A DNA stretch of 47,741 nt from a virus. Location of the stretch: positions 1 to 47,741 of the IMG/VR virus record IMGVR_UViG_3300008267_000225; one strand, 5' to 3'. Positions 54 through 47,741 of this stretch are shown here, one piece after another. Made by a program: the position numbers and the translations under genes. The stretch's first letter is position 1; the number at the start of each line of letters is the position of its first letter. The notes under the pieces are model-generated. The model was not told the DNA's origin. It was given only the letters and a program-made list of their open reading frames with translations, and made no database searches.

Positions 54-362
54 ATGAAACAACAAATTAACGAAGCAGTTAGACTTAAACAATTAGCTGG
101 TATTTTATCCGAGAATATTGATGATATGCCTGTTAGTGAGGCATCTAATCAAATGACTCCTGAAACACGTGCAGCGCTTAGTTCTGTGACGATGTTGAGT
201 GCTCCTGAGGTTGAAGACTTCTTAGTTGGATTAGTTAAGTATTTTAATTATGTTAGTGGTGGAGATGGAGACGATAATGAACTACCTAACATCGATGTAA
301 AAGCACTAACACATCATCTAAGCCAAGCTGCCTCTGTACTCGCTGCTAGAACCGGCAATTAA
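54..362 (+). CDS. Small leader-tagged protein, predicted internal head protein
   Basis: Unrecognised acidic protein of 102 residues. I start it at ATG 54 rather than the in-frame TTG at 39, because a TATTTAT motif sits just upstream and because its first 25 nt are identical to the start of the gene at 33852, whose body differs. Residues 1-20 (MKQQINEAVRLKQLAGILSE) form an amphipathic leader ending in L-S-E, the (L/I)xE pattern cut by T4-type prohead protease. I therefore infer a capsid-targeting peptide and a packaged protein. The rest is rich in Ser, Asp and Glu with no known motif. The frame is open to the left edge, so a longer start cannot be excluded. Bases 1-53 hold no other gene I can assign. 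Confidence 0.75.
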   Translation: MKQQINEAVRLKQLAGILSENIDDMPVSEASNQMTPETRAALSSVTMLSAPEVEDFLVGLVKYFNYVSGGDGDDNELPNIDVKALTHHLSQAASVLAARTGN

Positions 363-29328: not shown

Positions 29329-29331
29329 TGA

Positions 29332-29338
29332 TATTTAT
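29332..29338 (+). promoter_or_regulatory. TATTTAT late-promoter-like motif
   Basis: ATATTTATTA, 6 nt before ATG 29345. It marks the return from DNA-metabolism genes to late genes. Confidence 0.5.
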
Positions 29339-29344
29339 TATCAT

Positions 29345-29998
29345 ATGATCATGGACTACACAGCAATAGGCAGATTAATAGTTGAAGAGGTTGTAAATGA
29401 GGCAGGCATCTGTTTCTACCCAGCAGGCTTCAAACCACCACATAAAGGGCATTTCAAAGCAGCTAAAAACTTAGCATCGAGAAACTACATAACGGAAGTT
29501 GTTGTAATAATAAGCAGAAAGTCGGAAGAAGGTATCACACCGGAGCAGTCACTGCAGATTTGGAAGATGTATTTAGCAGCAGAACCAAATCCAAAAATAA
29601 AACCAAGAATAGCAGAAGCAGACAGTCCAGTAGAGGACATCTTTTCTTATTTAGGAAAGCATCAAGACGTGAGTGCAATATACGTTGCAGGTGGAGATGA
29701 TGAAAAAGATGACCAAGAATACTTAAAGAGTATACAAAGTAGATATCCTAACATCGTAAAAACAATATCAATCCACGAGAAGGATGGTAGAGTTAATTCA
29801 TACTACGTGAGAGAGTTATTGAGAAATCAAGATTACGAATTATTCAAAACAACTATTCCCGAAGCAGCTTACAATAAAGGATTCGCTCCAAAAATATTTC
29901 AAATGCTGACAGCAACAGTTCAGCCACCGGAAGAGCAACCAGAAGAAAAACCAACACTAAAAGCACCACCAATGCCAAATGAACCAGAACAAGCTTGA
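29345..29998 (+). CDS. Nucleotidyltransferase (HxGH, NMNAT-like) with leader
   Basis: 217 residues from ATG 29345, or 215 from ATG 29351. Counting from the latter, H31-K-G-H34 in PAGFKPPHKGHFKAAKNLA is the HxGH motif of the cytidylyltransferase/NMNAT fold. VAGGDDEKDD and a NSYYVRELL stretch (position of the ISxxxxR motif) follow. It transfers a nucleotidyl group; whether the substrate is NMN, a phospho-sugar or other cannot be told. The first 17 residues (MDYTAIGRLIVEEVVNE) resemble the cleavable leaders here, with I-V-E and V-N-E. The C-terminus is a Pro/Glu-rich tail. It may be a packaged enzyme. Confidence 0.85.
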   Translation: MIMDYTAIGRLIVEEVVNEAGICFYPAGFKPPHKGHFKAAKNLASRNYITEVVVIISRKSEEGITPEQSLQIWKMYLAAEPNPKIKPRIAEADSPVEDIFSYLGKHQDVSAIYVAGGDDEKDDQEYLKSIQSRYPNIVKTISIHEKDGRVNSYYVRELLRNQDYELFKTTIPEAAYNKGFAPKIFQMLTATVQPPEEQPEEKPTLKAPPMPNEPEQA

Positions 29999-30782: not shown

Positions 30783-30793
30783 AATAAAATGTT

Positions 30794-31243: not shown

Positions 31244-31244
31244 C

Positions 31245-31895
31245 ATGCCAGCAGTATCAAAAGCACAACAGCAAGCAGCCGGAGCAGCTTTAGCAGCTAA
31301 AAAGAAAGGTAAAACAACCGGACTTAAAGGCGCAGCTAAATCAATGGCTAAGATGACTAAAAAAGAATTAGAAAAAGTAGCATCCACAAAGCACAAAGGA
31401 CTTCCAAAACACATAAAAGAATCAGTAGAGGAAGGTGAGATGATAGATGAAGCTATGGGATATACAGATAATGTTTATTTTTGGATGGTACAAAAACCAG
31501 AAAGTGATGGAGCTGACCCACAAGAATTAGTGTATCCAGGAGACGAACAAGGCGAGCAAGGCATGGATCCGTTTACATTTGCTAAAATTGTAATGGGTGG
31601 TCTTACACCTAGTCAAGTATACGGATTTTATTCATCAAAAGATGAAGCACTAAACGCTGCTCACGATATAGTAGTAGCAGTAAACGAAGCTGCAAAAACG
31701 CTAGAAGAGAAAAAGCACACTGTTACATCTAAGATTGAAGAAACAATCAAAAAGCTACAGAAAGAAGTTAATCGCTGCATGGAAGAAGGAAAGGATCAAA
31801 AAGCTCAACAAATAATTCAAAGGATAGCAGAGTTACGCAGCAAGCATCAAATGGTAGAAGCATCTAAAAAAGAAATCGAAAAAGAAGAGGAATAA
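31245..31895 (+). CDS. DUF3008-type protein with C-terminal coiled coil
   Basis: 216 residues from ATG 31245, chosen over an upstream in-frame start at 31215 that overlaps the previous gene. Residues 1-65 (MPAVSKAQQQAAGAALAAKK ... KELEKVASTKHKGLPKH) follow the DUF3008 pattern: MPAVSKAQQ, basic middle, T-KHKGLPxH end. The middle part (about 65-140) is unknown, and residues 145-216 form a long charged helix, likely a coiled coil. Function unknown; the basic N-terminus might bind DNA. Confidence 0.75.
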   Translation: MPAVSKAQQQAAGAALAAKKKGKTTGLKGAAKSMAKMTKKELEKVASTKHKGLPKHIKESVEEGEMIDEAMGYTDNVYFWMVQKPESDGADPQELVYPGDEQGEQGMDPFTFAKIVMGGLTPSQVYGFYSSKDEALNAAHDIVVAVNEAAKTLEEKKHTVTSKIEETIKKLQKEVNRCMEEGKDQKAQQIIQRIAELRSKHQMVEASKKEIEKEEE

Positions 31896-31897
31896 TT

Positions 31898-32260
31898 ATG
31901 GAACAGTACGCACAATTCATCAGTACGCTTTTTGCATCACGCACTCAAGCACACATCTTTCACCTACAGACAACTTCATTTGCAGCTCACGCAGCTCTGA
32001 ATACATTCTACGATGAAATCGTTGATTTAGCAGACGGATTAGTAGAAAGCTTTCAAGGTAGATACGGAATCGTTAGAGGCTACACAAGCCCAGCTTCTTT
32101 CAAAGAAGACGATCAAGTAGTGCCTTACTTCGAAGCTCTATCAAAGTATGTAGAGACAGCTAGAAAAGGATTACCACAGGATAGCTACATTCAAAATGAA
32201 ATTGATAATGTGGTAGGATTGATCGAATCAACTAAATACAAACTAAAATTCTTACACTAA
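31898..32260 (+). CDS. Small helical-bundle protein, unknown
   Basis: 120 residues, nearly all helical. ASRTQAHIFHLQTTSFAAHA and FYDEIVDLADGLVESFQG give regularly spaced His, Asp and Glu on helices, a layout reminiscent of ferritin-like/Dps bundles, but the metal site is not clear enough to call. It begins 2 nt after the previous stop and ends one base before a leader-tagged gene. Confidence 0.65.
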   Translation: MEQYAQFISTLFASRTQAHIFHLQTTSFAAHAALNTFYDEIVDLADGLVESFQGRYGIVRGYTSPASFKEDDQVVPYFEALSKYVETARKGLPQDSYIQNEIDNVVGLIESTKYKLKFLH

Positions 32261-32261
32261 G

Positions 32262-32552
32262 ATGAAATTAATTAACGAAACAAAAAGAATGCAGCAATTA
32301 GCTGGATTACTAACAGAATCTCAGATAAACGAATTTGGAGGCTATGGCTTTAAGGAACCTAATCCCGAAGATATCGATTTTGTAGTAATGAATAGAAATA
32401 CGCCTGCTTATGTACAAGCATTTTCACCTCGTGAGCGTTTAGATATGGATCCACTTACTGATGATGAATTACGTTTACATATTAAAGCTACTGTAGATAG
32501 AGATGATTTGAAAGATGCTAGAGCATACATGGAAGAATTGATGAACGCTTAA
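32262..32552 (+). CDS. Leader-tagged small protein, predicted internal head protein
   Basis: 96 residues. The leader MKLINETKRMQQLAGLLTE ends in L-T-E at 17-19 followed by Ser, matching (L/I)xE cleavage, and is the same type as those at 54 and 33852 (I-N-E ... R-M-Q-x-L-A-G). The body is acidic, with PEDIDFVVMNRNTPAYVQAF and a C-terminal helix, and has no known domain. It opens the densest stretch of leader-tagged genes. Confidence 0.7.
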   Translation: MKLINETKRMQQLAGLLTESQINEFGGYGFKEPNPEDIDFVVMNRNTPAYVQAFSPRERLDMDPLTDDELRLHIKATVDRDDLKDARAYMEELMNA

Positions 32553-32575
32553 TACATTAAAAAGTTAACTTAGTA

Positions 32576-33187
32576 ATGTTAGACGAAAAGAAAAGTATTT
32601 GCTGCCATGACTGTGGACACATGCATCCAATGGATACATCGTGCCCTAAGCCTTTTTTAACAGGCAAGAGAAGCTGTGCAAGAAGATCACTAAAAGAAAC
32701 GGATGAAGAAATCAAATGTAAAGAGTGTGGCTGGCATTGGAATATAGCAGATGGAGGAAAAGATCCATACACATGCCATAAGTGTGGATGCGACAACACA
32801 CCAGTACGGAGAGAACTACACACAATGGATCACGATGGACATGATGAGCACCATCAACTAAGAGTCGATGTAGAGGAGGCAATGGATTACTGCCCACAGT
32901 GTCTAGCAGAGTACATCGAAGAGCATTGGAATACATTAGAAGAAGCAGAGTACAAAGGTCGCAAAGTTAGCTTAGGTAAACCCTTCCTAACACCAGGCGG
33001 ACCCAAGAAGAGATCAGTATACGTTAAGAATGCGAAAGGAAATGTTGTTAAGGTAAACTTTGGTGATCCTAACCTAAAGATAAAAAAGAACATCCCAGCT
33101 CGTAGAAAGGCATTTAGAGCAAGACATAAGTGTGCAACTGCGAAGGATAGAACATCACCAAGATACTGGAGCTGTAAACATTGGTAG
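32576..33187 (+). CDS. Multi-zinc-ribbon protein with basic RYWSCKHW C-terminus
   Basis: 203 residues, no leader. Cys pairs C9/C10-C13 (CCHDCGHMH), C48-C51 (CKECGWHW), C67-C70 (CHKCGC) and C106-C109 (CPQC) indicate several zinc sites. The C-terminal 80 residues (YKGRKVSLGKPFLTPGGPKK ... FRARHKCATAKDRTSPRYWS) form a basic module I recognise from many marine phage proteins of unknown role. The modules look joined from separate families. Nucleic-acid binding is a fair inference, not shown. Confidence 0.72.
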   Translation: MLDEKKSICCHDCGHMHPMDTSCPKPFLTGKRSCARRSLKETDEEIKCKECGWHWNIADGGKDPYTCHKCGCDNTPVRRELHTMDHDGHDEHHQLRVDVEEAMDYCPQCLAEYIEEHWNTLEEAEYKGRKVSLGKPFLTPGGPKKRSVYVKNAKGNVVKVNFGDPNLKIKKNIPARRKAFRARHKCATAKDRTSPRYWSCKHW

Positions 33188-33188
33188 C

Positions 33189-33476
33189 ATGATCAAACTA
33201 ATCGATATACTAGCTGAGATGTATCCACCTTACAAAGCGAATATGCTGCAGAAAGTGAGGTATAAAGCATCCGATACATTTACCAATGATCCTAAAGTAG
33301 CTACAAAAAGAGGGTATGCAGAAGGATACCACGATCCAGTGGAACCAGGAATAGTTAAAAAGAGATTAGGAAAGTTGTCCTGCACACGAGTGAGATCAGC
33401 AAAAGCAAAACTAAAAGATAAAGGAACTCACTACGCAAAAGCACTACAAAGATATCTAAACTACCACTGCCAGTGA
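33189..33476 (+). CDS. Leader-tagged basic protein, predicted internal head protein
   Basis: 95 residues. ATG 33189 is chosen, one base after the previous stop, rather than an in-frame start at 33132, because it gives the leader MIKLIDILAE followed by Met. The body is basic, with KKRLGKLSCTRVRSAKAKLK and HYAKALQRYLNYHC at the end, a C-terminal pattern I associate with other small phage proteins. DNA contact inside the capsid is plausible. It overlaps the GTG start of the next gene. Confidence 0.72.
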   Translation: MIKLIDILAEMYPPYKANMLQKVRYKASDTFTNDPKVATKRGYAEGYHDPVEPGIVKKRLGKLSCTRVRSAKAKLKDKGTHYAKALQRYLNYHCQ

Positions 33477-33850
33477 TTAAACTTATCGACATATTGAATG
33501 AAGTGCTTGAAGAGAAGAAAGCAGATCGCTGTCTTCGTATCGCAAGACAGAAGTACGATAAGCCATCTGCCTATAGGTCAGGAGCGATTGTAAGGTGTCG
33601 TAAAGGTGATATCTGGAAGGCTATAAAAGAAGATGAATCCCTACACAAATGGTTCTCTAGAAAAGGTGGATCAGGATCATCAAAGGGGTGGGTAGATTGT
33701 AACACATGTCGTCAAGTAGACGGTAAAACTAAATGCAAAACATGTGGTAGACAAAAGGGAGAAAAAAGATCAAAGTATCCATCATGCCGTCCAACACCAA
33801 GTGCTTGTAAAGATTCAGGCAAAGGTACAAAATGGGGTAAAACAAAATAA
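33473..33850 (+). CDS. Leader-tagged Cys-rich protein (DUF5872-like)
   Basis: 125 residues from GTG 33473, which overlaps the previous stop. The leader MIKLIDILNE is exactly ten residues. The body has two parts: KADRCLRIARQKYDKPSAYR plus IVRCRKGDIWK, and ESLHKWFSRKGG ... WVDCNTCR ... CKTCGRQKGEKRSKYPSC. The second part resembles the DUF5872 family as I recall it. The Cys pattern (CxxC twice, then single Cys) could bind zinc. Predicted packaged; function unknown. Confidence 0.75.
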   Translation: MIKLIDILNEVLEEKKADRCLRIARQKYDKPSAYRSGAIVRCRKGDIWKAIKEDESLHKWFSRKGGSGSSKGWVDCNTCRQVDGKTKCKTCGRQKGEKRSKYPSCRPTPSACKDSGKGTKWGKTK

Positions 33851-33851
33851 A

Positions 33852-34061
33852 ATGAAACAACAAATTAACGAAGCAGCGAGAATGCAAGAATTAGCCGGGG
33901 TACACAACGAAAACCCAGCGTCAAACCTACTATCATTACTAGCATCACCGGAAATGAAAACATATATGAATCAACTATTAGATACTCTGGGTAACGATAA
34001 GTTCATGCGAGTAAAAAAGTTGTACGATGGATTATATGCAGAGTTGAAAAAATACGAATAA
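33852..34061 (+). CDS. Leader-tagged short protein, variant cleavage site
   Basis: 69 residues from ATG 33852. Its leader MKQQINEAARMQELAGVHNE shares 25 identical nt with the start of the gene at 54, but the last part is V-H-N-E, so the Leu/Ile normally two positions before Glu is His. Cleavage may be weak or absent. The body is one or two helices (LLSLLASPEMKTYMNQLLDT). It follows the previous stop by one base. Confidence 0.7.
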   Translation: MKQQINEAARMQELAGVHNENPASNLLSLLASPEMKTYMNQLLDTLGNDKFMRVKKLYDGLYAELKKYE

Positions 34062-34070
34062 AATAATAGA

Positions 34071-34184
34071 ATGGCAAGAGCAAAAGCTAAGAAGGTACCG
34101 ATGAAATCAAAAAGAAGCGGTATTAAAAAGCAAAAACAGATAGATCAAAACAACGCGATCTTGAAAAAGTATAAAGCAAAATGA
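34071..34184 (+). CDS. 37-residue highly basic protein
   Basis: ATG 34071 to TGA 34184. Very Lys/Arg-rich (MARAKAKKVPMKSKRSGIKK), with no acidic residue before a single Asp. Its stop overlaps the next ATG (ATGA). The composition suits DNA or RNA binding, perhaps DNA neutralisation in the head. It is short, but the tight coupling to both neighbours supports it as a gene. Confidence 0.6.
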   Translation: MARAKAKKVPMKSKRSGIKKQKQIDQNNAILKKYKAK

Positions 34185-34408
34185 AACCAATCATAGCAGT
34201 CGACAAAGCAAACCACTTCATAGCAGGGACAGTAATCTACTGTCTATCTCTATTTTTACTATCACCACTAGCAGCTCTAATACCAGTAATAGTAATAGGA
34301 GCCGCTAAAGAAGTATATGATGAAAAGAAGAGAAAAGGAAGAGGAGACATTTGGGATTTTTTATATACAGTAGCAGGAGCAATACCTGTATTAATAACAC
34401 ACTTATGA
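34181..34408 (+). CDS. Small membrane protein, 2-3 helices
   Basis: 75 residues. DKANHFIAGTVIYCLSLFLL and SPLAALIPVIVIGAAKEVYD are membrane helices, and a third weaker one ends the protein (FLYTVAGAIPVLITHL). The pattern H-F-x-x-G ... K-E-x-Y-D ... D-x-x-D/F-x-x-T-x-x-G-A is that of a small membrane-protein family found in phages and bacteria (DUF2279-like). A holin role is possible from size and topology but not shown. It is paired with the next membrane gene by an ATGA overlap. Confidence 0.7.
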   Translation: MKPIIAVDKANHFIAGTVIYCLSLFLLSPLAALIPVIVIGAAKEVYDEKKRKGRGDIWDFLYTVAGAIPVLITHL

Positions 34409-34683
34409 AAAATATAAAAAGAATATTAGGACTACCTCTAATAATAGGTATACCGTTTCCTATCCTATTTGCAGATCAAGACCATCAAATGTGGTATGCG
34501 GTATTAGCATATCTATTTGCATTTATCGGAACCGGGCTAACAATGGGATTCTCTAACTATAAAACAAGACCATACCATATCGGTAACATGGATAGCGATA
34601 ATATCCAACCAAAGATTAACCAAACGTGGATGATATTTTTTATAGCACTTATTATCAATCTAACCGTAGCTAATTTATTCTAA
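34405..34683 (+). CDS. Small membrane protein, 3 helices
   Basis: 92 residues from ATG 34405, which overlaps the previous stop; an in-frame start at 34351 would overlap too far. Hydrophobic stretches lie at about 7-22 (LGLPLIIGIPFPILFA), 30-50 (YAVLAYLFAFIGTGLTMGFS) and 74-92 (TWMIFFIALIINLTVANLF). No family recognised. Together with the preceding gene it makes a two-gene membrane pair inside the internal-protein island. Confidence 0.68.
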   Translation: MKNIKRILGLPLIIGIPFPILFADQDHQMWYAVLAYLFAFIGTGLTMGFSNYKTRPYHIGNMDSDNIQPKINQTWMIFFIALIINLTVANLF

Positions 34684-35036
34684 TGATCAAACTAACAGAC
34701 ATACTAAACGAAGCAAAAAAAGAAGAACCTAAACTAGGAGCCTTCGAAGAATTTGCTGGAACTAGAGAGAAGGGTGCTGAGAAAATAGCAAAGAATGCTA
34801 AAGAGAAAGGTGGTCTTTCCATGTTAACTTATCACCATTTTCACGTTAAATTACCATACTACAAAAAAGCAGCAGAGGGTAAATTGGACATGGAAGCAAC
34901 CCACAAAGAGTATAAAGATTTACTAAAGCAGCTACATACAGCAACTAAAACTAATATGAACATTGATCAAGTAGCTTTCCAAAAGCTGGTTGGCAAGATA
35001 GAAGTATTAGGTGAGTTACTAATAAAACATAAATAA
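34683..35036 (+). CDS. Leader-tagged protein, predicted internal head protein
   Basis: 117 residues. Leader MIKLTDILNE followed by Ala, the best match in the window to the T4 sequence MKTYQEFIAE followed by Ala. The body is helical and Lys-rich; LTYHHFHVKLPYYKKAAEGK is its distinctive segment and looks conserved. Both ends overlap neighbours by one base, so it is co-translated in the island. Confidence 0.75.
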   Translation: MIKLTDILNEAKKEEPKLGAFEEFAGTREKGAEKIAKNAKEKGGLSMLTYHHFHVKLPYYKKAAEGKLDMEATHKEYKDLLKQLHTATKTNMNIDQVAFQKLVGKIEVLGELLIKHK

Positions 35037-35455
35037 TGATTAAGCTCCTAGATATCCTAAACGAAGTGGAAATTAGCAAGTGTCCACCAGCCACTCAGAA
35101 CATAGAGTTAAACTTGCAAAATAGGCAAAAAGCTATTAACGAATACGGCTACGGACCACTTAATCCAAATAACCCCAACGAAAAGTTTTGGCAAGCCAAA
35201 GCGGATATGTGGAAGCTAGACTCGGTAGAAGAAGCTAAGTCATCAAAATGCGGTAATTGTGCTGCATTCGACATAACAAAGAAGACTTTAGATTGTATTG
35301 CCAAAGGAATAGGCGACGATCAAGGATCGGAGGATCCCTTTGATGTTATCGAGGCTGGGAAGTTAGGATACTGTAGATTTTTAAAATTCAAATGCGCTGC
35401 AGCCAGGACATGTGATGCATGGGTTGTCGGCGGACCAATAACTGATAGCAAATAG
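35036..35455 (+). CDS. Leader-tagged Cys-rich protein, predicted internal head protein
   Basis: 139 residues. Leader MIKLLDILNE, then a segment QNRQKAINEYGYGPLNPNNP and a Cys-rich C-terminal half: C74 and C77 (CGNC), C87, C112, C119 and C124 (CRFLKFKCAAARTC). Such a set could hold an Fe-S cluster or zinc, though no named family fits. The segment before the leader-free part (KCPPATQN) adds one more Cys. Packaged as inferred from the leader. Confidence 0.73.
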   Translation: MIKLLDILNEVEISKCPPATQNIELNLQNRQKAINEYGYGPLNPNNPNEKFWQAKADMWKLDSVEEAKSSKCGNCAAFDITKKTLDCIAKGIGDDQGSEDPFDVIEAGKLGYCRFLKFKCAAARTCDAWVVGGPITDSK

Positions 35456-36090
35456 TGCAACTAATACTAACAGATAGCCAATTTGATCCTAAAACATCCT
35501 GGGAAAATCCCATACGTAAATACGACAACCCTTTTATAAATTGTGTTGATTTATTTGATACGAACGGATACGATCTAACAGAGCTAGAACAAGATTACGC
35601 AGAAGTAAACACCCCAGCAGCTCATCACAGATATAAAAAAGCTTTAAAATACACTTGGTTTAAAACAACAGAAGCTGTTATAGAGGGAGTGCATATAAAT
35701 CACGCTTTGCTATTTGAGAGAAAAGCATACAGCGGAGCAGCACTAACACAACTAAAAGACTGGGGTAGTAAGATACCCCTTGTAAATAAATTAACAAAGA
35801 TAAAGTCTAAATGGGGGATTGATTTAGCAATTGACTACGTTGATAGAGAAGGAAATGTATTTGAGGTATTCCACTACGAGTGGGACGATTTTCACTACGA
35901 AAACGTAATGGCTGCGAAGGAGAAAGTTGAGAAATTAGCGCTAAATACGGACTGGGCTGACGCAGCTAAGGAATTACTAAAGCGGAGAGATGAGTGGATG
36001 TCACTACCCTTTTTTGAGCAGAGTGACTGGAAATGTAAGTTTTACGGAATAGAACCTGAAAAGTTCAAAATAATTATTTGGAACGATTAA
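35455..36090 (+). CDS. Protein of unknown function without leader
   Basis: 211 residues, starting at GTG 35455 that overlaps the previous TAG. It is rich in Trp, Tyr and acidic residues; GIDLAIDYVDREGNVFEVFH and DDFHYENVMAAKEKVEKLAL are the most structured parts, with a strand pair then helices. The E/D-rich Y-V-D-R-E-G-N-V-F-E segment might bind metal. It interrupts the series of leader-tagged genes and so may act before packaging. Confidence 0.7.
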   Translation: MQLILTDSQFDPKTSWENPIRKYDNPFINCVDLFDTNGYDLTELEQDYAEVNTPAAHHRYKKALKYTWFKTTEAVIEGVHINHALLFERKAYSGAALTQLKDWGSKIPLVNKLTKIKSKWGIDLAIDYVDREGNVFEVFHYEWDDFHYENVMAAKEKVEKLALNTDWADAAKELLKRRDEWMSLPFFEQSDWKCKFYGIEPEKFKIIIWND

Positions 36091-36092
36091 AC

Positions 36093-36099
36093 TATTTAT
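36093..36099 (+). promoter_or_regulatory. TATTTAT late-promoter-like motif
   Basis: ACTATTTATTA, 15 nt before ATG 36115, in the only real gap within this part of the island. Confidence 0.5.
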
Positions 36100-36114
36100 T
36101 AAAAATACAGATTA

Positions 36115-36552
36115 ATGATTAAACTAATTAACCTTCTTGTAGAAAATAGCAACTATTCTGAGTATTCAAACGATGCTCTAAAAGATATGATTATTAATCT
36201 ATCAAGATACGAAGGTAACGAGGAAATTATTGCTAAAGTAAAAGATGAGTTGAAAAAAAGAGAATTAGCTGAATGCGGTGGATGTGAAAGACAGGGAACC
36301 GACTACACTCACGGACATGATCACGAAGCTTCAATGGCTGACAGCGAATTAAGAGATATGATCTCAAACGCATCCAAGCTACAAAATATGATTCAACCAG
36401 GAGACGAACTACCAGGATGGGTATCTGCTTACATCAGCCTAGCCGCTGATTATATGCATTCAGTTGCAGAATATATGGCAGGGCAACAAGCTGAAATGCA
36501 AGCAACAGCACCAACACCTGGATTTGCTATAGTAGCGGAAAAAAAGAAATAA
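36115..36552 (+). CDS. Leader-tagged protein with helical C-terminal domain
   Basis: 145 residues. Leader MIKLINLLVE (ten residues, L-V-E) followed by Asn. Residues 58-72 have a Cys/His patch (CGGCERQGTDYTHGHDHE) that may bind metal. The C-terminal 80 residues (ADSELRDMISNASKLQNMIQ ... WVSAYISLAADYMHSVAEYM) form a helical domain I recognise from many small marine phage proteins of unknown role. Predicted packaged. Confidence 0.75.
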   Translation: MIKLINLLVENSNYSEYSNDALKDMIINLSRYEGNEEIIAKVKDELKKRELAECGGCERQGTDYTHGHDHEASMADSELRDMISNASKLQNMIQPGDELPGWVSAYISLAADYMHSVAEYMAGQQAEMQATAPTPGFAIVAEKKK

Positions 36553-36553
36553 T

Positions 36554-37036
36554 ATGAACAACATAGCGATTATAAGAAGGCTTATTTTAAACGAAGTGGA
36601 GAGAATGGAACCAAACGTACAATCGTTTGAGGATAACCCAATTGCTTTCCTACTCAAAAAGTACCCGACACTAAACAAGACTCTTGAAATGCTAATGACA
36701 CCAGCATTCAAAGACTACGTTACAGGTATCTATATCATAGCTCCTAAGCCAACAACGTTCAAAATAACACTACACAACGATCAGGAGTTCTTATTGACAT
36801 TCTTAGAAAGGGCATACGAAGCAACTGTAGCAGGTAAAAAGTTCTATCTAAGAACAATAGGTGAGAAAGAGAGATGTATAAATGCGATAGCAAGACTATT
36901 AACTCTAGGTAATCCAATTGAAACAAAAGGACCAGAGGGAGAAGAACAAACAGCAGACGAAGGTACAGGAGAACCTGAAACAGCAGCAGCAGAAGCACCA
37001 CCAGCAGAAACTGAAGCAGGTGAAACTGAATCATAA
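36554..37036 (+). CDS. Leader-tagged protein with acidic C-terminal tail
   Basis: 160 residues. Leader MNNIAIIRRLILNE, ending L-N-E at residue 14. The folded part (about 25-120; AFLLKKYPTLNKTLEMLMTP, ITLHNDQEFLLTFLERAYEA) appears compact alpha/beta. The last 40 residues are almost only Glu, Ala, Pro, Gly and Thr. Acidic tails are common in head-core proteins. It is the last gene of the island and is followed by an intrinsic terminator. Confidence 0.75.
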   Translation: MNNIAIIRRLILNEVERMEPNVQSFEDNPIAFLLKKYPTLNKTLEMLMTPAFKDYVTGIYIIAPKPTTFKITLHNDQEFLLTFLERAYEATVAGKKFYLRTIGEKERCINAIARLLTLGNPIETKGPEGEEQTADEGTGEPETAAAEAPPAETEAGETES

Positions 37037-37055
37037 ACTAGGTAAAACCACTCTT

Positions 37056-37068
37056 GGGATAGTATCCC
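37056..37068 (+). other. Short hairpin upstream of the terminator
   Basis: GGGAT, loop AGT, ATCCC: a five-pair stem 6 nt before the stronger terminator stem. It may add to termination or protect the 3' end. Confidence 0.35.
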
Positions 37069-37074
37069 TTGATT

Positions 37075-37106
37075 GACCCGACCCCGTAAGGTTGGGTTTC
37101 TTTTTT
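37075..37106 (+). terminator. Intrinsic terminator
   Basis: Stem 37075-37083 pairs with 37090-37098 (nine pairs, two G-T wobbles) around loop CCGTAA, followed by TCTTTTTT. It is the clearest terminator in the window and separates the internal-protein island from the next unit. Confidence 0.8.
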
Positions 37107-37111
37107 AGTTG

Positions 37112-37140
37112 TTGGTAATATAAAATGGTTTGAGTATATT
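37112..37140 (+). promoter_or_regulatory. Sigma-70-like promoter candidate
   Basis: TTGGTA (37112-37117), 17-nt spacer, TATATT (37135-37140), 19 nt before ATG 37160 and directly after the terminator. The region also contains an imperfect GGTTT ... AAACC inverted repeat (37128-37152) that could be an operator. Confidence 0.45.
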
Positions 37141-37159
37141 ATAGTATAAACCAAATAAT

Positions 37160-37408
37160 ATGAGATCAACAACAACCTACAAAACAATGAAAACTGCCTG
37201 CGGTAAAACAATTACATACATGCAGACGACAGGTCAAAATGCAAAGCCACACTCAATGGAAGGACCTGCTATTATTTATCCTGAAAGTGACAACACTGCA
37301 CCGGAGTATTACATCAACGGAATTAAGTATAGTAAAGCTGATTGGCAGATATTAGTAGCGCAAGATAAAGTTTTACTAGCAGGTGAACCAACCAACCTTG
37401 ACTTCTAG
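37160..37408 (+). CDS. Small protein with HSMEGPA/YYINGIKYS pattern
   Basis: 82 residues. KPHSMEGPAIIYPESDNTAP and YYINGIKYSKADWQ follow the repeat-like pattern (N-G-x-P-H-R-x-x-G-P-A ... Y-Y-x-x-G-x-x-Y-S-x-x-x-W) of small phage and large-virus proteins related to MORN/YwqK repeats. The function of those is not known. The gene has its own promoter candidate and lies alone between a terminator and the terminase promoter motif, so it may be expressed at a different time from its neighbours. Confidence 0.7.
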   Translation: MRSTTTYKTMKTACGKTITYMQTTGQNAKPHSMEGPAIIYPESDNTAPEYYINGIKYSKADWQILVAQDKVLLAGEPTNLDF

Positions 37409-37415
37409 TGCCAAC

Positions 37416-37422
37416 TATTTAT
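37416..37422 (+). promoter_or_regulatory. TATTTAT late-promoter-like motif
   Basis: ACTATTTATTA, 32 nt before the terminase ATG at 37455. It opens the head-gene block. Confidence 0.5.
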
Positions 37423-37454
37423 TAATAAACACTCGTAGGTTATAACCTAGACAA

Positions 37455-39044
37455 ATGGCACAACAACCAAGCATATCAGATGCAATAAAGCAGGAACTAA
37501 TTAAATGTAAGCAGGATGCTGTGTACTTCATGAAGAAGTACTACACAATCCAGCACCCTACCAAAGGTAGAATGACTTTCAATCTCTACCCATTTCAGGA
37601 AAAGACTTTAAAACTCCTGCAGAGATACGATTACACGATCATAAATAAATCAAGACAGCTCGGTATATCAACACTGAGCTCTGCATTTGCTCTTTGGATG
37701 ATGCTGTTTGAGCAGGATAAAAACATTCTTGTACTTGCAACTACGCAAGCAACAGCAAAGAATATGGTAACGAAGGTTAGGTTTGCATACGACAATCTAC
37801 CTAGTTGGATGAAGCTACCGGTAATGGAGCACAACCGTCTTAGTTTAAGACTCAAGAACGGATCTCAAATCAAAGCAGTATCAGCAGCAACTGACTCAGC
37901 TCGTTCGGAAGCGGTATCACTACTTGTGATAGATGAGGCTGCGTTCATTGATAGAATCGAAGACATCTTTACAGCTGCACAACAAACCCTTGCAACGGGT
38001 GGTCGATGTATTGCACTATCAACTCCAAACGGTGTTGGTAACTGGTTTCACAAAGAATTCACAAGAGCTCAAGTTGGAGAGAATAAATTTACTCCAATCA
38101 GCTTACCATGGACAGTGCATCCGGAAAGAGAGCAGTCCTGGAGAGATGAACAAACAGCTCAGCTAGGACCAAGAGCAGCTGCACAGGAGTGCGATTGCGA
38201 CTTTAGCACATCAGGTGATACTGTAATTGAACCAAACACATTAAACTACTACCAAGAAAACACAGTAAGAGAACCAGTAGAAAGAAGAGACCAGGGAGGT
38301 AACTACTGGCTATGGAAGTACCCTGATTCAATGAAAACCTACATGGTTGTAGCTGACGTTGCTCGTGGTGATGGAAAAGACTTTTCAACTTTCCACGTAT
38401 TCGATGTAGATGAGCTAGAACAAGTAGCAGAATTTAAAGATCAAATACCAACCAAAGACTTTGCACGCAAACTAATATCAGTTGCAACCGATTGGAACAA
38501 CGCAATGCTAGTCGTGGAGAATGCAAGTATTGGATGGGATGTTGTAACAACAATCCAAGAAGCTGGCTACGCAAATCTATACTACTCTCCTAAATCAGAA
38601 GTAGTAGGTACTCAAATAGACTTATACGTAGCTAAGTTTGATAGAGGAGATGGAATGGTCCCAGGCTTCAGTATGAATCAAAAGACAAGACCGTTAGTAA
38701 TTGAGAAAGCGAGATCCTTTATAGAAGAAAAAACAGTAACAATAAGATCACAAAGATTCTTAGATGAGCTAAGAGTTTTCATTTGGAAGAACGGCAGAGC
38801 TCAGGCAATGAACGGATACAACGATGACTTAGTAATGCCGGGCTGCGTAGGACTATTCCTACGTGATACAGCGCTCAGATTTAGGCAGACAGCAATGGAT
38901 CTAACCTATGCAAGTCTCAATAGTTTCACAAGAACCACAAACGACGGTTTTCAAGTCTACACACCGTCATCAAACAACCAAAATAATCCTTGGACAATGC
39001 AGGCTGGAAATGAGCAAACAGACATAACTTGGCTGCTGGGATAA
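37455..39044 (+). CDS. 17: Large terminase subunit gp17
   Basis: 529 residues (T4 gp17: 610). ATPase domain: K65-S-R-Q-L-G-I-S-T (Walker A region), LLVIDEAAF with D160-E161 (Walker B), and ALSTPNG near 187-193 (coupling motif). Nuclease domain: D301 (VVADVARGDGKDFST), E355 (LVVENASIG) and D457/D458 (GYNDDLV). It pumps DNA into the prohead and cuts the concatemer. The P-loop lacks the Lys that T4 has in SRQLGKTT and has one at the start instead, as in lambda gpA. Sheath and tube genes, which follow gp17 in T4, are not here; the portal gene follows directly. Confidence 0.96.
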   Translation: MAQQPSISDAIKQELIKCKQDAVYFMKKYYTIQHPTKGRMTFNLYPFQEKTLKLLQRYDYTIINKSRQLGISTLSSAFALWMMLFEQDKNILVLATTQATAKNMVTKVRFAYDNLPSWMKLPVMEHNRLSLRLKNGSQIKAVSAATDSARSEAVSLLVIDEAAFIDRIEDIFTAAQQTLATGGRCIALSTPNGVGNWFHKEFTRAQVGENKFTPISLPWTVHPEREQSWRDEQTAQLGPRAAAQECDCDFSTSGDTVIEPNTLNYYQENTVREPVERRDQGGNYWLWKYPDSMKTYMVVADVARGDGKDFSTFHVFDVDELEQVAEFKDQIPTKDFARKLISVATDWNNAMLVVENASIGWDVVTTIQEAGYANLYYSPKSEVVGTQIDLYVAKFDRGDGMVPGFSMNQKTRPLVIEKARSFIEEKTVTIRSQRFLDELRVFIWKNGRAQAMNGYNDDLVMPGCVGLFLRDTALRFRQTAMDLTYASLNSFTRTTNDGFQVYTPSSNNQNNPWTMQAGNEQTDITWLLG

Positions 39045-39057
39045 TACAACTAAAAGA

Positions 39058-39066
39058 TATTTATAA
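39058..39066 (+). promoter_or_regulatory. TATTTATAA late-promoter-like motif
   Basis: GATATTTATAAG, 3 nt before the portal ATG at 39070. Confidence 0.5.
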
Positions 39067-39069
39067 GAT

Positions 39070-41016: not shown

Positions 41017-41024
41017 TACACAGA

Positions 41025-41033
41025 TATTTATAA
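41025..41033 (+). promoter_or_regulatory. TATTTATAA late-promoter-like motif
   Basis: GATATTTATAAG, 15 nt before ATG 41049; the head-core block follows. Confidence 0.5.
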
Positions 41034-41048
41034 GTAAGCTAAAACGCA

Positions 41049-43567: not shown

Positions 43568-45274
43568 ATGAAGAATATACAAGCGCAGTACCAAGACCTT
43601 TTAGAAGGTAAAATGTCAAAAGCTAATTTCATGGTGAACGTACGCAGAGACTTTCCTCACTGGGTAGCTTCTGGAAACTCGTTTAACGATGCTGTAAAGA
43701 TTTTGAAGAGTAAGAGAATTTTGAGTGAAAGCCACGAAGGAAACACTCAGTGGTTAGAGACCTTTAAACAGGATATCGAAGCAGCAAACCTATCACCTGA
43801 AAAGAAAGAAGAGGCGGAAGCAGCTATGAGATATTTAGGAGATCATGGATTAGTTGATATGTATGGAATGATGCAATCACCATTTGCTGCCAGAGCTTTT
43901 ATGGGAGATGCTAGCGAGATTGTGAAAAGAGCTGAGGATGAAATGATTAGAAAGCACGATGACGAAGAGAGAGGAGAGCGTGACGTACTAGCTCAGTGGG
44001 ATCTAAACGAAAAAGATGAAGATAAAGGAGAGAGAATAGGCAACATACATATTGCTACAGATACAAAAACCGATTCAGATATTTATTTTGATCCTACGAC
44101 AGGCGTCTTCTCTATCAACATAGTTGATGCTGCGGGAAATAGACGGAATAAACTACAAGTCAACACCATCGACGATGTGGTAGCTAAATTTCCTGCTTTG
44201 AAATGGACAAAAAAAGGTATAGCTGAGTTTCAACCTGAAGACCAAGATACTGTTAATACCCTTGCTCTGCACGAAGCAGTACAAAAGCCAGAAGGAAAAT
44301 ATAAAGAAGTAACAGGTAAAGTTGAATACGATTTCTTCCCAGGAGCTGATCACGTAAACTACTACCAACTAATGAAAGGTCTACAATACGAGCTTTCTAA
44401 GATGGGAGAGATTACAGATGAGGCATTGGTAAAAGCCAAGCAAAAAGCTGTTAAGAATCTTGTAAAAGATCCAAACGCATACAGAGACCTAGTTATTGCA
44501 AACGTTAAGGATATCGAGAAAAAAGATAAAGATCTTAGAATGCAACCAGTTAAAAAAGATAACACGGTTGATAAGGCAAACGCAATGAAAGTTGTTGAGA
44601 AAGATGCAAAAGGAAACGTACAAGATAGCTTAGGAAAGAAGGAAAAAGCAAAAAATAAAAATGGTGAAGGTGTTAAACAAATGACACAAACTCCAAAAAA
44701 AGCTAAAGGCATTGCACAGGTAATGGAAGTTCCTGGCAAAGAAAAAGTACTAGCACTTAAAGAACATTTATTAGAAGATCTAACAGTAGAGAATCCAATC
44801 AAAAAACAATTTTCAGTTGGACAGAGAGTAGAGACTAACGACGGACGCTTCGCAGGAGAGATAACTAAGTTTGACGGTCATACAGCAACTGTAAAGTTAG
44901 ATACAACTGATCAAGAAAGAGATTTCCAACCAAACTTCTTAAAACACTCAGACGCAGCTCCAAGACCAAAGCTACCAAACTATCAATCAGATTATATAAA
45001 GAATGCACCAGCTCTTGCACAAAAAGAGAACATGAGCAGAGAGGATAAGCTAAAGTCAATCAAAGAGAAGTTGATGAAAGCTGTGAAAAAAGAAATGGAA
45101 GAAGGCGCAATTCTTGCAACAGGTAAGGTAGGGGATACAACCACACAATCGACACCAGTGTACTCAGGACCAACTGCAGCAGCTGCTATGCAAAAAGGTA
45201 AAGCAATCAAAGCAGCTACAAAAGATCCACTTAAAGTAATAGATACTAAAACAGGAAAAGAAACTCAAGTATAA
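43568..45274 (+). CDS. Large head-core protein with leader and SH3-like domain
   Basis: 568 residues. The start MKNIQAQYQDLLEGK contains Y-Q-D-L-L-E-G, matching (L/I)xE followed by Gly, the preferred T4 gp21 site. SKANFMVNVRRDFPHWVASG and FNDAVKILKSKRILSE follow as a conserved-looking domain (15-55). The middle is helical and charged with long Lys/Glu tracts (about 310-390). Residues about 418-455 hold an SH3/KOW-like unit (FSVGQRVETNDGRFAGEITK). It lies directly before the protease gene, overlapping it by one base. A scaffold or core protein that is processed is inferred. Confidence 0.7.
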   Translation: MKNIQAQYQDLLEGKMSKANFMVNVRRDFPHWVASGNSFNDAVKILKSKRILSESHEGNTQWLETFKQDIEAANLSPEKKEEAEAAMRYLGDHGLVDMYGMMQSPFAARAFMGDASEIVKRAEDEMIRKHDDEERGERDVLAQWDLNEKDEDKGERIGNIHIATDTKTDSDIYFDPTTGVFSINIVDAAGNRRNKLQVNTIDDVVAKFPALKWTKKGIAEFQPEDQDTVNTLALHEAVQKPEGKYKEVTGKVEYDFFPGADHVNYYQLMKGLQYELSKMGEITDEALVKAKQKAVKNLVKDPNAYRDLVIANVKDIEKKDKDLRMQPVKKDNTVDKANAMKVVEKDAKGNVQDSLGKKEKAKNKNGEGVKQMTQTPKKAKGIAQVMEVPGKEKVLALKEHLLEDLTVENPIKKQFSVGQRVETNDGRFAGEITKFDGHTATVKLDTTDQERDFQPNFLKHSDAAPRPKLPNYQSDYIKNAPALAQKENMSREDKLKSIKEKLMKAVKKEMEEGAILATGKVGDTTTQSTPVYSGPTAAAAMQKGKAIKAATKDPLKVIDTKTGKETQV

Positions 45275-45903
45275 TGAGCAAAGAAGTCTTAATAGAATAC
45301 ATGACATTCAAGCCACTGCCTAAGCAGTTGCACGAAGCTAGAATGAACCCAAGGGCTCAGTTCTTAGTATCAGGAAAGGTGCAAGCGGCTGACATGCCAA
45401 ATGCAAATAAGCGTATCTACGACTATGACACCCTACACAAGCAAGTAGCTTTGTATATAGACGGACCTATTGCAGAAAAAAGAGCTTTAGGTGAATTAGA
45501 CCACCCAGAAACGTCTGTAATCAACTTAAAGAACGTTTGCCACAACATCACAAGACTTTGGTGGGAAGGAAAAGAACTATACGGTGAATTTGAAATACTA
45601 GACACTCCATCAGGAAACATATTAAAAGAATTATTCCTAGCAGGAATTAACGTCGGTGTATCATCAAGAGCAATGGGATCTGTAATGCCAATAGGCGAAG
45701 GTCTTGTTCAAGTGCAGGATGATTTGGAATTAATATGCTGGGATTTTGTATCCACTCCATCAACCTATGGAGCATACGTAAAACCTGTAGGAGGCTTAAA
45801 TGAAAGCTATAATCCACAAATAAACAACAATAGACGTGCAGGAGTTGACAGACTGATCTCAGATATCATCTGCACACAGTCGGGAGTTTGTTGCATAACT
45901 TAA
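45274..45903 (+). CDS. 21: Prohead protease gp21
   Basis: 209 residues, similar to T4 gp21 (212). The serine protease fold of the phage prohead/herpes assemblin type is shown by H77 in GELDHPE and S130/S131 in GVSSRAMGS. W/F strands lie between (RLWWEGKELYGEFEI), and DLELICWDFVSTPS follows. It cleaves core and shell proteins after (L/I)xE during head maturation. Its own N-terminus has Q-L-H-E-A at 18-22, a possible self-cleavage site. It is the enzyme that would remove the leaders described here. Confidence 0.95.
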   Translation: MSKEVLIEYMTFKPLPKQLHEARMNPRAQFLVSGKVQAADMPNANKRIYDYDTLHKQVALYIDGPIAEKRALGELDHPETSVINLKNVCHNITRLWWEGKELYGEFEILDTPSGNILKELFLAGINVGVSSRAMGSVMPIGEGLVQVQDDLELICWDFVSTPSTYGAYVKPVGGLNESYNPQINNNRRAGVDRLISDIICTQSGVCCIT

Positions 45904-45924: not shown

Positions 45925-46260
45925 ATGAACGAAGCAAAATTATGGCAATTAAGAGCCGGACTTATAACAGAAAGTGAGTACCAAGCATCAATGAAAGAGA
46001 CAAACGGTAGCATAGAACAAGAGCCAGTAGTCGGTGATGCAGAAGAAAAATCAGCAGTAACAAACTCAGCGACTCTCAAATTATACCTTAAAGATATAAG
46101 TACGGGTAAAATAAAATTGGATCTTGATCCTAAAGAAGCAGTAGAATTGTATAATTTTATCAACCAATTTGTAGAAAAGGGTAGCAAAGCAAGCATCTCA
46201 GGCATAGCTAGGACAACAAATGCAAACTTCACTAGAACTGTGAAAAACGTAAAAGCTTAA
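45925..46260 (+). CDS. Leader-tagged small head protein
   Basis: 111 residues. Leader MNEAKLWQLRAGLITE ends I-T-E at 14-16 followed by Ser, related to the L-A-G-x-x-x-E leaders. The body has an acidic linker and a small alpha/beta part (TLKLYLKDISTGKIKLDLDP, EAVELYNFINQFVEKG). A TATATTTA run at 45903-45910 upstream is a weaker form of the common motif. Placed between protease and scaffold, it is very likely a head-core or internal protein. Confidence 0.72.
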   Translation: MNEAKLWQLRAGLITESEYQASMKETNGSIEQEPVVGDAEEKSAVTNSATLKLYLKDISTGKIKLDLDPKEAVELYNFINQFVEKGSKASISGIARTTNANFTRTVKNVKA

Positions 46261-46271: not shown

Positions 46272-46829
46272 GTGATTAAGTTTGTTAATATACTAAAAGA
46301 GTTAGAAGAAGAAAACTCTATCGATCTATCAGATTTGAGAGACCTTCCTGATTTAATAGGTAAAGAGTTAGAAAAAGCTTCAAAGCAAGAGAACGAATCA
46401 ATACTAGGTGCCACCGCACTTGTACTAGCAGCACCAGGCATTGTTAATGCAGTTATGAAGGTCGTAGAAGTAATCGCTAAGAAAAGTGGCATTGACTTAA
46501 AAAAGAGGAAAGGTCCGAGTTGGTATAAAACCATAGAAAAAGTAACTGCTAAAATAGACGGCTATCTAGACACTCCTTTCAAACTAATGCTTCGCCCATT
46601 CATATCAGATCAGACGAAGAGAGACAAAGTTGCTAAATTTTTAAAAGCAATAACACTAGCAAGTATGGCAGTTTTAGGAGCAGTAGATCTAACCAAACTA
46701 GAGAGTACAGCAGCAGCAATAAGAGATCTTGCAGGCCAATCGAGCGGTGAGATTATACAAGCGGTTAGCGAACGCAGTGCGCCAAAACTAACACAGATAG
46801 TAAAAAACTTTATAACAAATCTTAAGTAA
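46272..46829 (+). CDS. Leader-tagged protein with membrane-like helices
   Basis: 185 residues from GTG 46272. Leader MIKFVNILKE is ten residues, ending L-K-E. An acidic helix (15-45) is followed by hydrophobic helices at about 45-67 (LGATALVLAAPGIVNAVMKV) and 118-133 (ITLASMAVLGAVDL), with basic stretches around them. It could insert in a membrane after ejection or be an amphipathic core protein. No family recognised. It is followed by a 129-nt gap. Confidence 0.72.
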   Translation: MIKFVNILKELEEENSIDLSDLRDLPDLIGKELEKASKQENESILGATALVLAAPGIVNAVMKVVEVIAKKSGIDLKKRKGPSWYKTIEKVTAKIDGYLDTPFKLMLRPFISDQTKRDKVAKFLKAITLASMAVLGAVDLTKLESTAAAIRDLAGQSSGEIIQAVSERSAPKLTQIVKNFITNLK

Positions 46830-46958: not shown

Positions 46959-47741
46959 ATGGAAAGCAATCAAGACTTGTACAGACAAGCGATCTTGGAT
47001 GCAAAAGCAGTACGTGAGACGGCAATGGCTGCAGCCAGAACAACTCTCGCAGAACACTTTGAACCAAAGATCAGAGAAATGATGAGTCAGAAACTTTCTG
47101 AAGACGTGGAAGAGAGCATCGAAGAAGACCTTGAGGAATCAATGGGCGATGACTCTAACATGGAAGAAAGAATGAACGACGAATCAATGCACACAGAAGA
47201 TGCCAGCATGGTGGACGAATCTACTCTTGATGAAATCTTAGCTGAACTCGATGCATTGTCGGAAGACATGGATGGAGGTATGACAGATGAGTCAATTGAA
47301 GAAGGTCACATCAATTCAGATGGTTACACTGGAAAAAAAGGTAAAGGTAGCACTGGCTATGACGAATCAGACAAGGTATCTCATAGCGAGAAAAAAGGTC
47401 TACACGAAGCTGATGACGAAGATGCTGAAGAAGAAGCTCCAGAAGGAGACGATGACATGGCAGATTTACCAGCAGGTGGTGAAGAAGGTCCTGTAACAGA
47501 CTCAGACGAAATGGTTGAGTTAACAGTTGGCGAGCTTAAAGACATCATCCGTGACGTATTCATGCAGATGCAAGGCGGTGGAGCACCAGAAGGTGACTTA
47601 GACGCTGGAACTGACATGGCTGCTGAAATGGGCACAGACGACGAAATGAAAGAGATTTCTCTTGAAGAAATTCTAGCTGAGCTCGAGGAAGATGAAAAGA
47701 AAATGGAAGAAGCTGCTGAGCCAGGAAAGATCCCAGGTGGA
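46959..47741 (+). CDS. 22: Prohead core scaffold, gp22-like (partial, runs off window)
   Basis: ATG 46959; 261 codons open to the window end without a stop. Very acidic and helical, starting MESNQDLYRQAILDAKAVRE. It carries two similar peptides, TLDEILAELDALSED (about 88) and ISLEEILAELEEDEKK (about 231), each with L-A-E sites, and many other (L/I)xE points. Position after gp21, composition and abundance of cleavage sites fit T4 gp22, the main scaffold that is chopped to small peptides. The major capsid gene should follow beyond the edge. Other acidic core proteins cannot be ruled out. Confidence 0.75.
   Translation, partial: MESNQDLYRQAILDAKAVRETAMAAARTTLAEHFEPKIREMMSQKLSEDVEESIEEDLEESMGDDSNMEERMNDESMHTEDASMVDESTLDEILAELDALSEDMDGGMTDESIEEGHINSDGYTGKKGKGSTGYDESDKVSHSEKKGLHEADDEDAEEEAPEGDDDMADLPAGGEEGPVTDSDEMVELTVGELKDIIRDVFMQMQGGGAPEGDLDAGTDMAAEMGTDDEMKEISLEEILAELEEDEKKMEEAAEPGKIPGG

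Follow-up and report, generated by a model that had tools for sequence, protein, structure and literature searches.

The question raised by this locus is why an uncultured T4-like phage should keep, beside its head genes and on one strand of the 47,741 nt analyzed here (the window), a tightly packed island of small genes (32262-37036) of which many begin with the same short leader. The first-pass annotation saw in it a candidate store of injected anti-defence or host-takeover proteins, by analogy with the internal proteins of T4. The reading favored here is that the island is probably a hypervariable locus of cargo genes, whose products this phage would package into its virions and inject.

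Organization of the island

An independent codon-usage gene caller, together with manual inspection, placed 13 genes in the island (Table 1), such that the coordinates and one-strand packing described earlier stand, while the count of 15 genes in less than 5 kb does not. Likewise, the overlaps of 1-4 nt previously given for the island are found at six of the 12 junctions, with gaps of 1 nt at three and of 9-24 nt at the other three. The shared leader was also seen correctly, but on eight genes rather than seven: five bear the strict type A (MIKLxDILNE/, about 10 residues; i3, i4, i9, i10, and i12), two the type B (...RMQxLAGLLTE/, 17-20 residues; i1 and i5), and i13 a longer variant (...RRLILNE/V). 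The remaining five (i2, i6, i7, i8, and i11) have no leader. The earlier description of zinc-ribbon, basic, and membrane proteins among them is borne out by i2, whose N-terminus is Cys-rich and zinc-ribbon-like by sequence inspection (no significant Pfam match) and whose C-terminus is basic, by the basic i6, and by the hydrophobic i7 and i8.

A terminator had been proposed at the end of the island and is confirmed at 37075-37098, the strongest terminator-like match in 28001-47000 (9 pairs, 5 G-C). As that interval has just as many such matches as expected from shuffled sequence, and the hairpin has a fold z-score of only -1.65, the assignment is best backed by recurrence, a hairpin and T-run being found at the same position in 35 of 55 relatives. 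Whole-island megablast against phages gave no match, and neither Rfam families nor tRNAs were found in the window.

Table 1. Features of the island and of other parts of the window. A slash marks the end of the leader; relatives are the number, out of 28 related contigs spanning the island, in which the gene was found.
Feature	Coordinates	Strand	Length (aa)	Leader	Relatives	Remarks
Leader B protein	54..362	+		B, MKQQINEAVRLKQLAGILSE/N		Left end of window
Weakly cytidylyltransferase/NMNAT-like protein	29351..29998	+		Leader-like N-terminus, ...EEVVNE/A		phrog_3041, E 3e-7; upstream of island
DUF5856/phrog_858 protein	31898..32260	+				Conserved left flank of island
i1	32262..32552	+	96	B, MKLINETKRMQQLAGLLTE/S	1	Acidic body
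i2	32576..33187	+	203	None	28	phrog_7595, E 9e-13; probable core part
i3	33189..33476	+	95	A, MIKLIDILAE/M	16	Basic body, pI 10
i4	33473..33850	+	125	A, MIKLIDILNE/V	11	GTG start; basic body, pI 10; DUF5872-like, E 2.5e-5, just under Pfam cut-off
i5	33852..34061	+	69	B, MKQQINEAARMQELAGVHNE/N	0	
i6	34071..34184	+	37	None	1	Very basic, pI 11
i7	34181..34408	+	75	None	1	Hydrophobic, probable membrane protein
i8	34405..34683	+	92	None	1	Hydrophobic, probable membrane protein
i9	34683..35036	+	117	A, MIKLTDILNE/A	9	
i10	35036..35455	+	139	A, MIKLLDILNE/V	0	Cys-rich C-terminus
i11	35455..36090	+	211	None	2	GTG start; two copies, one phage
i12	36115..36552	+	145	A, MIKLINLLVE/N	25	Acidic body
i13	36554..37036	+	160	Variant, MNNIAIIRRLILNE/V	28	Acidic tail
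Intrinsic terminator	37075..37098	+				Closes island; terminator-scan match and relatives
Terminase large subunit (gp17-type)	37455..39044	+				Right flank of island
gp21-type prohead protease	45274..45903	+				phrog_207, E 1.2e-47; downstream of island
Leader B-like protein	45925..46260	+		B-like, MNEAKLWQLRAGLITE/S		Adjoins protease gene
Leader A protein	46272..46829	+		A, MIKFVNILKE/L		Near protease gene
gp22-like scaffold candidate	46959..47741	+				Acidic translation with repeated LDEILAEL and EEILAEL (LxE motifs); cut by window end

Gene turnover and the bodies behind the leader

Among the 28 related contigs, several of which are near-duplicates at this locus, i2, i12, and i13 are retained in 25-28 and the other ten genes in 0-16. 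Comparison across relatives, as the first-pass annotation had suggested, therefore revealed rapid gain and loss alongside a conserved leader for ten of the 13 genes; one contig with a 98% identical terminase is missing five island genes and possesses two new leader genes. Homologs of i10 exist in other leader-bearing contigs despite their absence from all 28, and i13 has a homolog as well in the cultured relative Flavobacterium phage immuto (MW353175; host Flavobacterium sp. LMO8), where proteins with a leader lie at 103366, 109856, 111184, 111675, and 112261. Perfect conservation, which was to indicate structural parts rather than effectors, is absent for the ten but nearly attained by i2, i12, and i13, and because of this retention the three look like, and probably are, structural or core parts, i13 being probably a core or head part.

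The bodies that follow the leader are diverse. Across IMG/VR, leader A precedes differing mature bodies that form about 85 clusters with a mean column identity of 6%, although these were single-linkage BLAST clusters of short proteins and may include split remote relatives and a few spurious ORFs; M1 and E10 are invariant, in part imposed by the search motif. Domains recognized behind leader A in relatives comprise ART-PolyVal (1e-27), zeta toxin of the P-loop type (2e-9), GGACT (3e-9), Pribosyltran (6e-8), ParB_N (1e-7), GNAT (1e-6), and NTP_transf_2 (6e-5). ART bodies were found in L105 (ART-PolyVal, 1.3e-27), weakly in L163, and by inspection in L110, L119, and L146. Many leader-bearing bodies matched no assignable function. 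In searches against the PDB with phmmer, the zeta-like body weakly matched a tRNA(Sec) kinase (7e-4), and the kinase-like (L094), ART (L105), and i11 bodies gave chance-level matches only. Within the window itself, family scans of the bodies returned usable matches only for i4 (DUF5872, sub-threshold) and i2 (phrog_7595), with no significant match to ART, and most bodies were without an assignable fold. Structure prediction, proposed earlier as a route to known inhibitors, did not lead to one: the AF2 model of i9 has an all-helical body (pLDDT 91) with the leader as a separate low-confidence segment, and yielded neither a Foldseek match at E < 0.001 nor a convincing PDB match, while the AlphaFold model of i10 reached a pLDDT of 44. 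A fold claim for i9 was dropped, as its best VIA Z (6.2) does not rise above the noise seen for helical bundles.

It could be argued that the leader proteins belong to the structure or the scaffold core of the head (as core fillers, DNA-condensing proteins, or size determinants), so that they would be packaged and cleaved but do nothing in the next host. The location of the island in the head operon and the conservation of i2, i12, and i13 would fit this, as would the strongly basic bodies of i3 and i4, which recall T4 internal proteins touching DNA (PMC3012670). However, essential parts would persist, whereas most island members are missing in close relatives, even in the one with the nearly identical terminase; several bodies are acidic; and those of the relatives include ART, zeta-toxin-like, GNAT, and nucleotidyltransferase domains. 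For the leader proteins at large, a purely structural role is thus unlikely.

The leader peptides and the prohead protease

Leaders A and B share the ending [IL]xE, the motif at which the T4 prohead protease gp21 cleaves, so that each of the eight island genes has an N-terminal propeptide of the kind that defines T4-type internal proteins, with i5 (VHNE) as the weakest case. Position by position, leader A has the length and the key positions of the T4 ipII/ipIII leader (MKTYQEFIAE/A); in the T4 capsid-targeting sequence, positions 4 and 7 matter for targeting and 8 and 10 for cleavage (PMC9026906). Among 30 distinct N-termini of i9 homologs, picked by body homology, 83% are hydrophobic at position 8 and have E at position 10. 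The recurrence of leader A is not due to chance, as the strict motif was found in 6 ORFs of the window, where motifs with permuted positions averaged 0.05, and 99 times against 1.0 expected in an unbiased set of relatives gathered by terminase alone, in which one permuted motif, close to the real one, reached 65. Leaders A and B interchange on four homologous bodies; for example, the homolog of i12 in L155 and that of the 46272..46829 protein in L136 carry leader B. Further, zeta-like homologs in HTVC008M and Melnitz bear different leaders, ending in LKE/ and LQE/, directly before the same body start.

The genome also encodes a gp21-family protease, which presumably cuts the leaders. Of 22 long leader-bearing contigs, 16 have such a protease, and the six in which none was found may be fragments; in all 16 every leader match lies on the strand of the protease, while the reversed pattern had no matches. 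These observations bear on the suggestion that the island consists of ordinary accessory genes, expressed late and never packaged, whose common N-terminus would be a signal for translation or for the membrane. The hydrophobic proteins do indicate that the operon holds other types of genes too. However, the gp21 motif ends the leader at the junction with the body even where the rest of the leader differs, the leader always shares the strand of the protease in contigs that have one, and it is nearly absent from cellular genomes, making this suggestion very improbable. In 84,980 cellular genomes leader A was matched twice, once apparently by chance and once in a phage contig, and the idea that it is a common bacterial N-terminus was therefore rejected. 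A further possibility is that the 5' ends are conserved only as DNA homology, either as seeds for recombination or as remnants of a recent duplication, while the peptide has no role. This would agree with the high turnover and modular swapping, but is scarcely credible and was rejected, as codons at conserved leader positions in the genes of the window differ mostly synonymously (49 synonymous, 18 non-synonymous, 38 identical), such that it is not the DNA sequence that is preserved and selection acts on the peptide.

Comparison with known systems

T4 injects its internal proteins into the host, where type IV restriction enzymes are blocked by Ip1-3 (PMC12373910, PMC9026906). Like the island, IPI, IPII, and IPIII of Tevenvirinae combine a short [LI]xE/ leader on otherwise unrelated small proteins with a gp21-type protease and variable gene content. 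The island differs in its leaders, one with the consensus MIKLxDILNE and the other longer and of the LAG type; in being compact and directly upstream of the terminase gene, where T4 has two ip loci; and in the breadth of body types that follow the leader across contigs, about 85 clusters including enzyme domains, when T-evens are reported to have about 10 ip genes. No family-level match of a body to the T4 internal proteins was seen. T4 Alt is a head-packaged ADP-ribosyltransferase that is processed by gp21 and injected, and ART bodies lie behind leader A in relatives of this phage, although these are ART-PolyVal rather than Alt-type and no ART was recognized in the window.

The polyvalent proteins of phages and plasmids, single polypeptides of 2-15 domains that are predicted to be injected (Iyer et al. 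2017, PMC5512222), share with the relatives' bodies a repertoire of ART, kinase, ParB, nucleotidyltransferase, and metallopeptidase. They are defined by at least two disparate effector domains, whereas the island proteins (37-211 aa) have at most one recognizable domain, mostly one body per small protein with its own leader; the resemblance lies in the proposed mode of action only. In Agrobacterium phage Atu_ph07, gp053-gp062 form a run of ART proteins that are related to one another and begin with a leader (M[KR]Wx[QD]L[TN]E/). They lie within CDS 31-76, a gene cluster for which, taken as a whole, mass spectrometry of virions detected 29 proteins (PMC6102473). That leader is a different one, and one amplified body family takes the place of the many unrelated bodies of the island.

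A model for the island and its implications

The model proposes that leaders A and B serve as capsid-targeting sequences that, as the head is being assembled, would dock each protein to the scaffold core of the prohead. A gp21-type protease would then cut after [IL]xE and release the body within the head, and at infection the released bodies could exit with the DNA and act immediately on host defences or machinery. While i2, i12, and i13 would be core or head parts, the remaining island genes would be exchangeable cargo. An anti-defence function is suggested by the T4 internal proteins and by the cargo of relatives; the first-pass proposal of an anti-defence or takeover store gains from the turnover and from the effector domains in relatives, and is weakened by the three core-like genes, by the five leaderless ones, and by the finding that no body in the window matched a known inhibitor. 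Whether this leader of ten residues acts as a portable address tag for loading almost any protein into the head, in a wide group of uncultured T4-like phages, is evenly balanced.

The principle is already known from T-even phages, and what is new is the leader, the breadth, and the enzyme content. The T4 internal-protein idea, of a few small restriction inhibitors with a common leader, is widened to enzyme cargo of environmental phages that is ART-, zeta-toxin-, acetyltransferase-, and probably kinase-type. Phage-injected proteins are normally identified phage by phage via proteomics, and here a short sequence tag, statistically clean, marks candidates directly in metagenomic DNA; the long-standing question of which cargo is delivered in the first minutes of infection is made testable by a single virion proteome. 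The leader may also serve as a short, naturally occurring tag with which proteins of choice could be brought into phage heads. If the leader is indeed a portable address tag, reading genes by it alone would provide a sequence-based catalogue of phage-injected effectors, which would include new families of inhibitors against the defences of non-enterobacterial hosts.

Results

The island at 32262-37036 holds 13 genes, on which a codon-usage gene caller trained on the core genes and a manual reading agree, and this replaces the 15 of the first-pass annotation. The packing by 1-4 nt overlaps that it described is found at six of the 12 junctions, the others being spaced by 1 nt (three) or 9-24 nt (three), and the leader it had seen on seven genes is present on eight, in two forms. 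Leader A reads MIKLxDILNE/ (the slash marks the presumed gp21-type cleavage point); leader B is longer and ends RMQxLAGxxxE/. Both types reappear beside the protease, and leader B additionally at the left end of the window. That a terminator closes the island was borne out: the region's top candidate does not fold unusually against shuffles (z -1.65), and a hairpin with a T-run occurs at the same position in 35 of 55 relatives. The window, a 47.7-kb virus record, has a T4-like late module, with terminase, portal and prohead protease types identified; the closest cultured-phage terminases are those of Flavobacterium phage immuto (57% identity) and Microcystis phage Mel-JY01 (50%), and no nucleotide-level match to cultured phages was found.

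Island genes, their presence in related loci, and other features (window positions unless a locus is named; single numbers are gene starts)
Feature	Location	Leader	Loci (of 28)
i1	32262	B	0-2
i2	32576	none	28
i3	33189	A, strict	16
i4	33473	A, strict	11
i5	33852	B	0-2
i6	34071	none	0-2
i7	34181	none	0-2
i8	34405	none	0-2
i9	34683	A, strict	9
i10	35036	A, strict	0-2
i11	35455	none	0-2
i12	36115	A, strict	25
i13	36554	A, variant	28
Terminator	37075-37098
gp17-type terminase	37455
Portal	39070
gp21-type protease	45274
Genes beside protease	45925, 46272	B-like and A, respectively
Left-end gene	54	B
Zinc-ribbon module	32576-33187; L135 5525-; L182 8112-8543
Basic 43-aa protein	43422-43553
Gene divergent in L002	30794-31243
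immuto leader gene pair	L084 24569-25456	A and B
immuto Que/FolE/DpdA genes	L084 18607-37015
immuto 907-aa protein	L082 6115-8838
Atu_ph07 gp053-gp062	L212 21485-31508

Turnover was followed in 28 loci, each spanning the DUF5856 gene to the terminase, whose counts are not fully independent because a few loci are near-duplicates. Island size ranges from 2.1 to 9.3 kb, and the frame is fixed while its contents are exchangeable: seven genes recur in 0-2 loci and three in 9-16, with the leader conserved. Even L004, a contig whose terminase is 98% identical, lacks i3, i4, i5, i10 and i11 and carries two other B-leader genes absent from the window island. Turnover of the kind proposed for an arsenal is seen in ten genes, but not in i2, i12 and i13, which are kept in 25-28 loci and more plausibly serve as components of the core or head. 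Elsewhere, contig L002, otherwise near-identical to the window, diverges at one gene (77% identity), which suggests local replacement. A zinc-ribbon module (CxxCGWxWxxxxGGxDxYxCHKCGxDN) turns up in proteins with and without a leader, in the manner of a mobile building block. The very basic 43-aa protein (MAKAKSSAGSSTKITFGKRKSGKAAKSRNKHN...), without annotation, is conserved in many relatives, where its position just ahead of the gene at 43568 is also kept.

In relatives gathered by terminase similarity alone, the strict A motif heads 99 ORFs; motifs with permuted positions head 1.0 on average, although a single permutation close to the real motif scored 65. Homologs of 34683 chosen on the body alone have 30 distinct N-termini, of which 83% keep a hydrophobic residue at position 8 and E at 10, as do 9/9 homologs of 33189. 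At conserved leader positions within the window, codons are synonymous in 49 cases, non-synonymous in 18 and identical in 38; because they differ mainly at synonymous sites, it is the peptide, not the DNA, that is conserved. A scan of 84,980 cellular genomes found the pattern in 2, once in an apparently chance frame and once on a phage-like contig in a metagenome bin. The contig L207 (JAIOYD010000128.1), assigned to a Rickettsiaceae metagenome-assembled genome, is a fragment of a phage belonging to this group; it bears four leader-type genes and is probably misbinned.

The DNA pattern for MIKLxDILNE was found in at least 119 IMG/VR stretches, and among the matches listed all 126 distinct ones stand at the start of an open reading frame, in no case a short one. 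All loci pooled yield at least 283 complete leader-A ORFs in at least 85 body clusters, with Pfam matches to ART-PolyVal (1.3e-27), AIG2_2/GGACT (5.9e-14 and 2.6e-9), zeta toxin (2.2e-9), Pribosyltran (6e-8), ParB_N (1e-7), GNAT (1e-6) and NTP_transf_2 (6e-5), and weakly to Kinase-PolyVal and KptA-type domains. Inspection added HAD 5'-nucleotidase-like bodies (DMDGVLVDF) in three loci (L200, L063, L012) and an HExxH protein in L187. These types agree with the polyvalent proteins predicted to be injected (PMC5512222) and with the head-packaged ARTs treated in PMC9503650.

Leaders are also swapped. Four B-leader proteins share homologous bodies with A-leader proteins, as between i12 and an L155 protein (71% identity, C-terminal part) and between 46272 and an L136 protein (28%). 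A zeta-like body begins MIPFILKE/GLYDPGIF in Pelagibacter phage HTVC008M, MKTFAELQE/GVYDPNIF in Methylophilales phage Melnitz and MIKLxDILNE/GVYDPGIF in IMG/VR copies; the cleavage-type motif is therefore retained at a constant point before the body although the leaders differ.

Among 22 long contigs with leaders, a gp21-type protease was detected in 16, and the other six may be fragments; the 14 control genomes gave no such protease. In those 16, all leader hits share the protease strand, and the pattern read backwards has no match. Across the nearly whole immuto genome covered, leader-like N-termini cluster in the head region at 102-119 kb; one A- and B-leader gene pair lies far from it, at 24.6-25.5 kb. 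Immuto also carries genes annotated QueC/QueD/QueE/FolE/QueF and DpdA, which suggests 7-deazaguanine DNA modification, and a 907-aa protein annotated NMN adenylyltransferase, which occupies the slot filled in the window by a 215-aa cytidylyltransferase-like protein whose start resembles a leader. An independent parallel is offered by Agrobacterium phage Atu_ph07, in which gp053-gp062 are consecutive ART-like paralogs that begin with M[KR]Wx[QD]L[TN]E/ (MRWHQLIE/ in gp062), most with an ART-like YRGM motif. They fall within the cluster CDS 31-76, for which PMC6102473 gives 29 proteins in virions by mass spectrometry, a cluster-wide count not specific to gp053-gp062.

Discussion

Leader A equals in length the start of T4 ipII and ipIII (MKTYQEFIAE/A in the T4 record), in which mutagenesis assigned positions 4 and 7 to targeting and 8 and 10 to processing (PMC9026906); leader A has L4, I7, L8 and E10, and is often followed by A or V where T4 has A. 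A structure model of 34683-35036 has a leader helix, a low-confidence linker and a compact helical body, as would be expected of a removable tag, and an acidic scaffold candidate with repeated ILAE motifs lies at the right end of the window. By analogy with T4, it is most likely that each leader would dock its own protein to the prohead core and be cut off by the gp21-type protease, and that the freed body would then enter the host together with the DNA. The five leaderless island genes fall outside this mechanism.

Leader-sharing, hypervariable injected proteins are already known in T-even phages, with at least 10 ip genes reported (PMC12373910). In the literature searched, whose incomplete coverage is no proof of absence, no description of this leader was found; new here are the leader consensus, the existence of a second type of leader, the arrangement in one compact locus adjoining the terminase gene, and a cargo that is broad and enzymatic in character. 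T4 Ip1-3 are alike in the leader only, and each blocks different GmrSD enzymes (PMC12373910). From Ip1-3, Alt and the cargo of relatives, we infer that the injected bodies may serve in anti-defence or host takeover.
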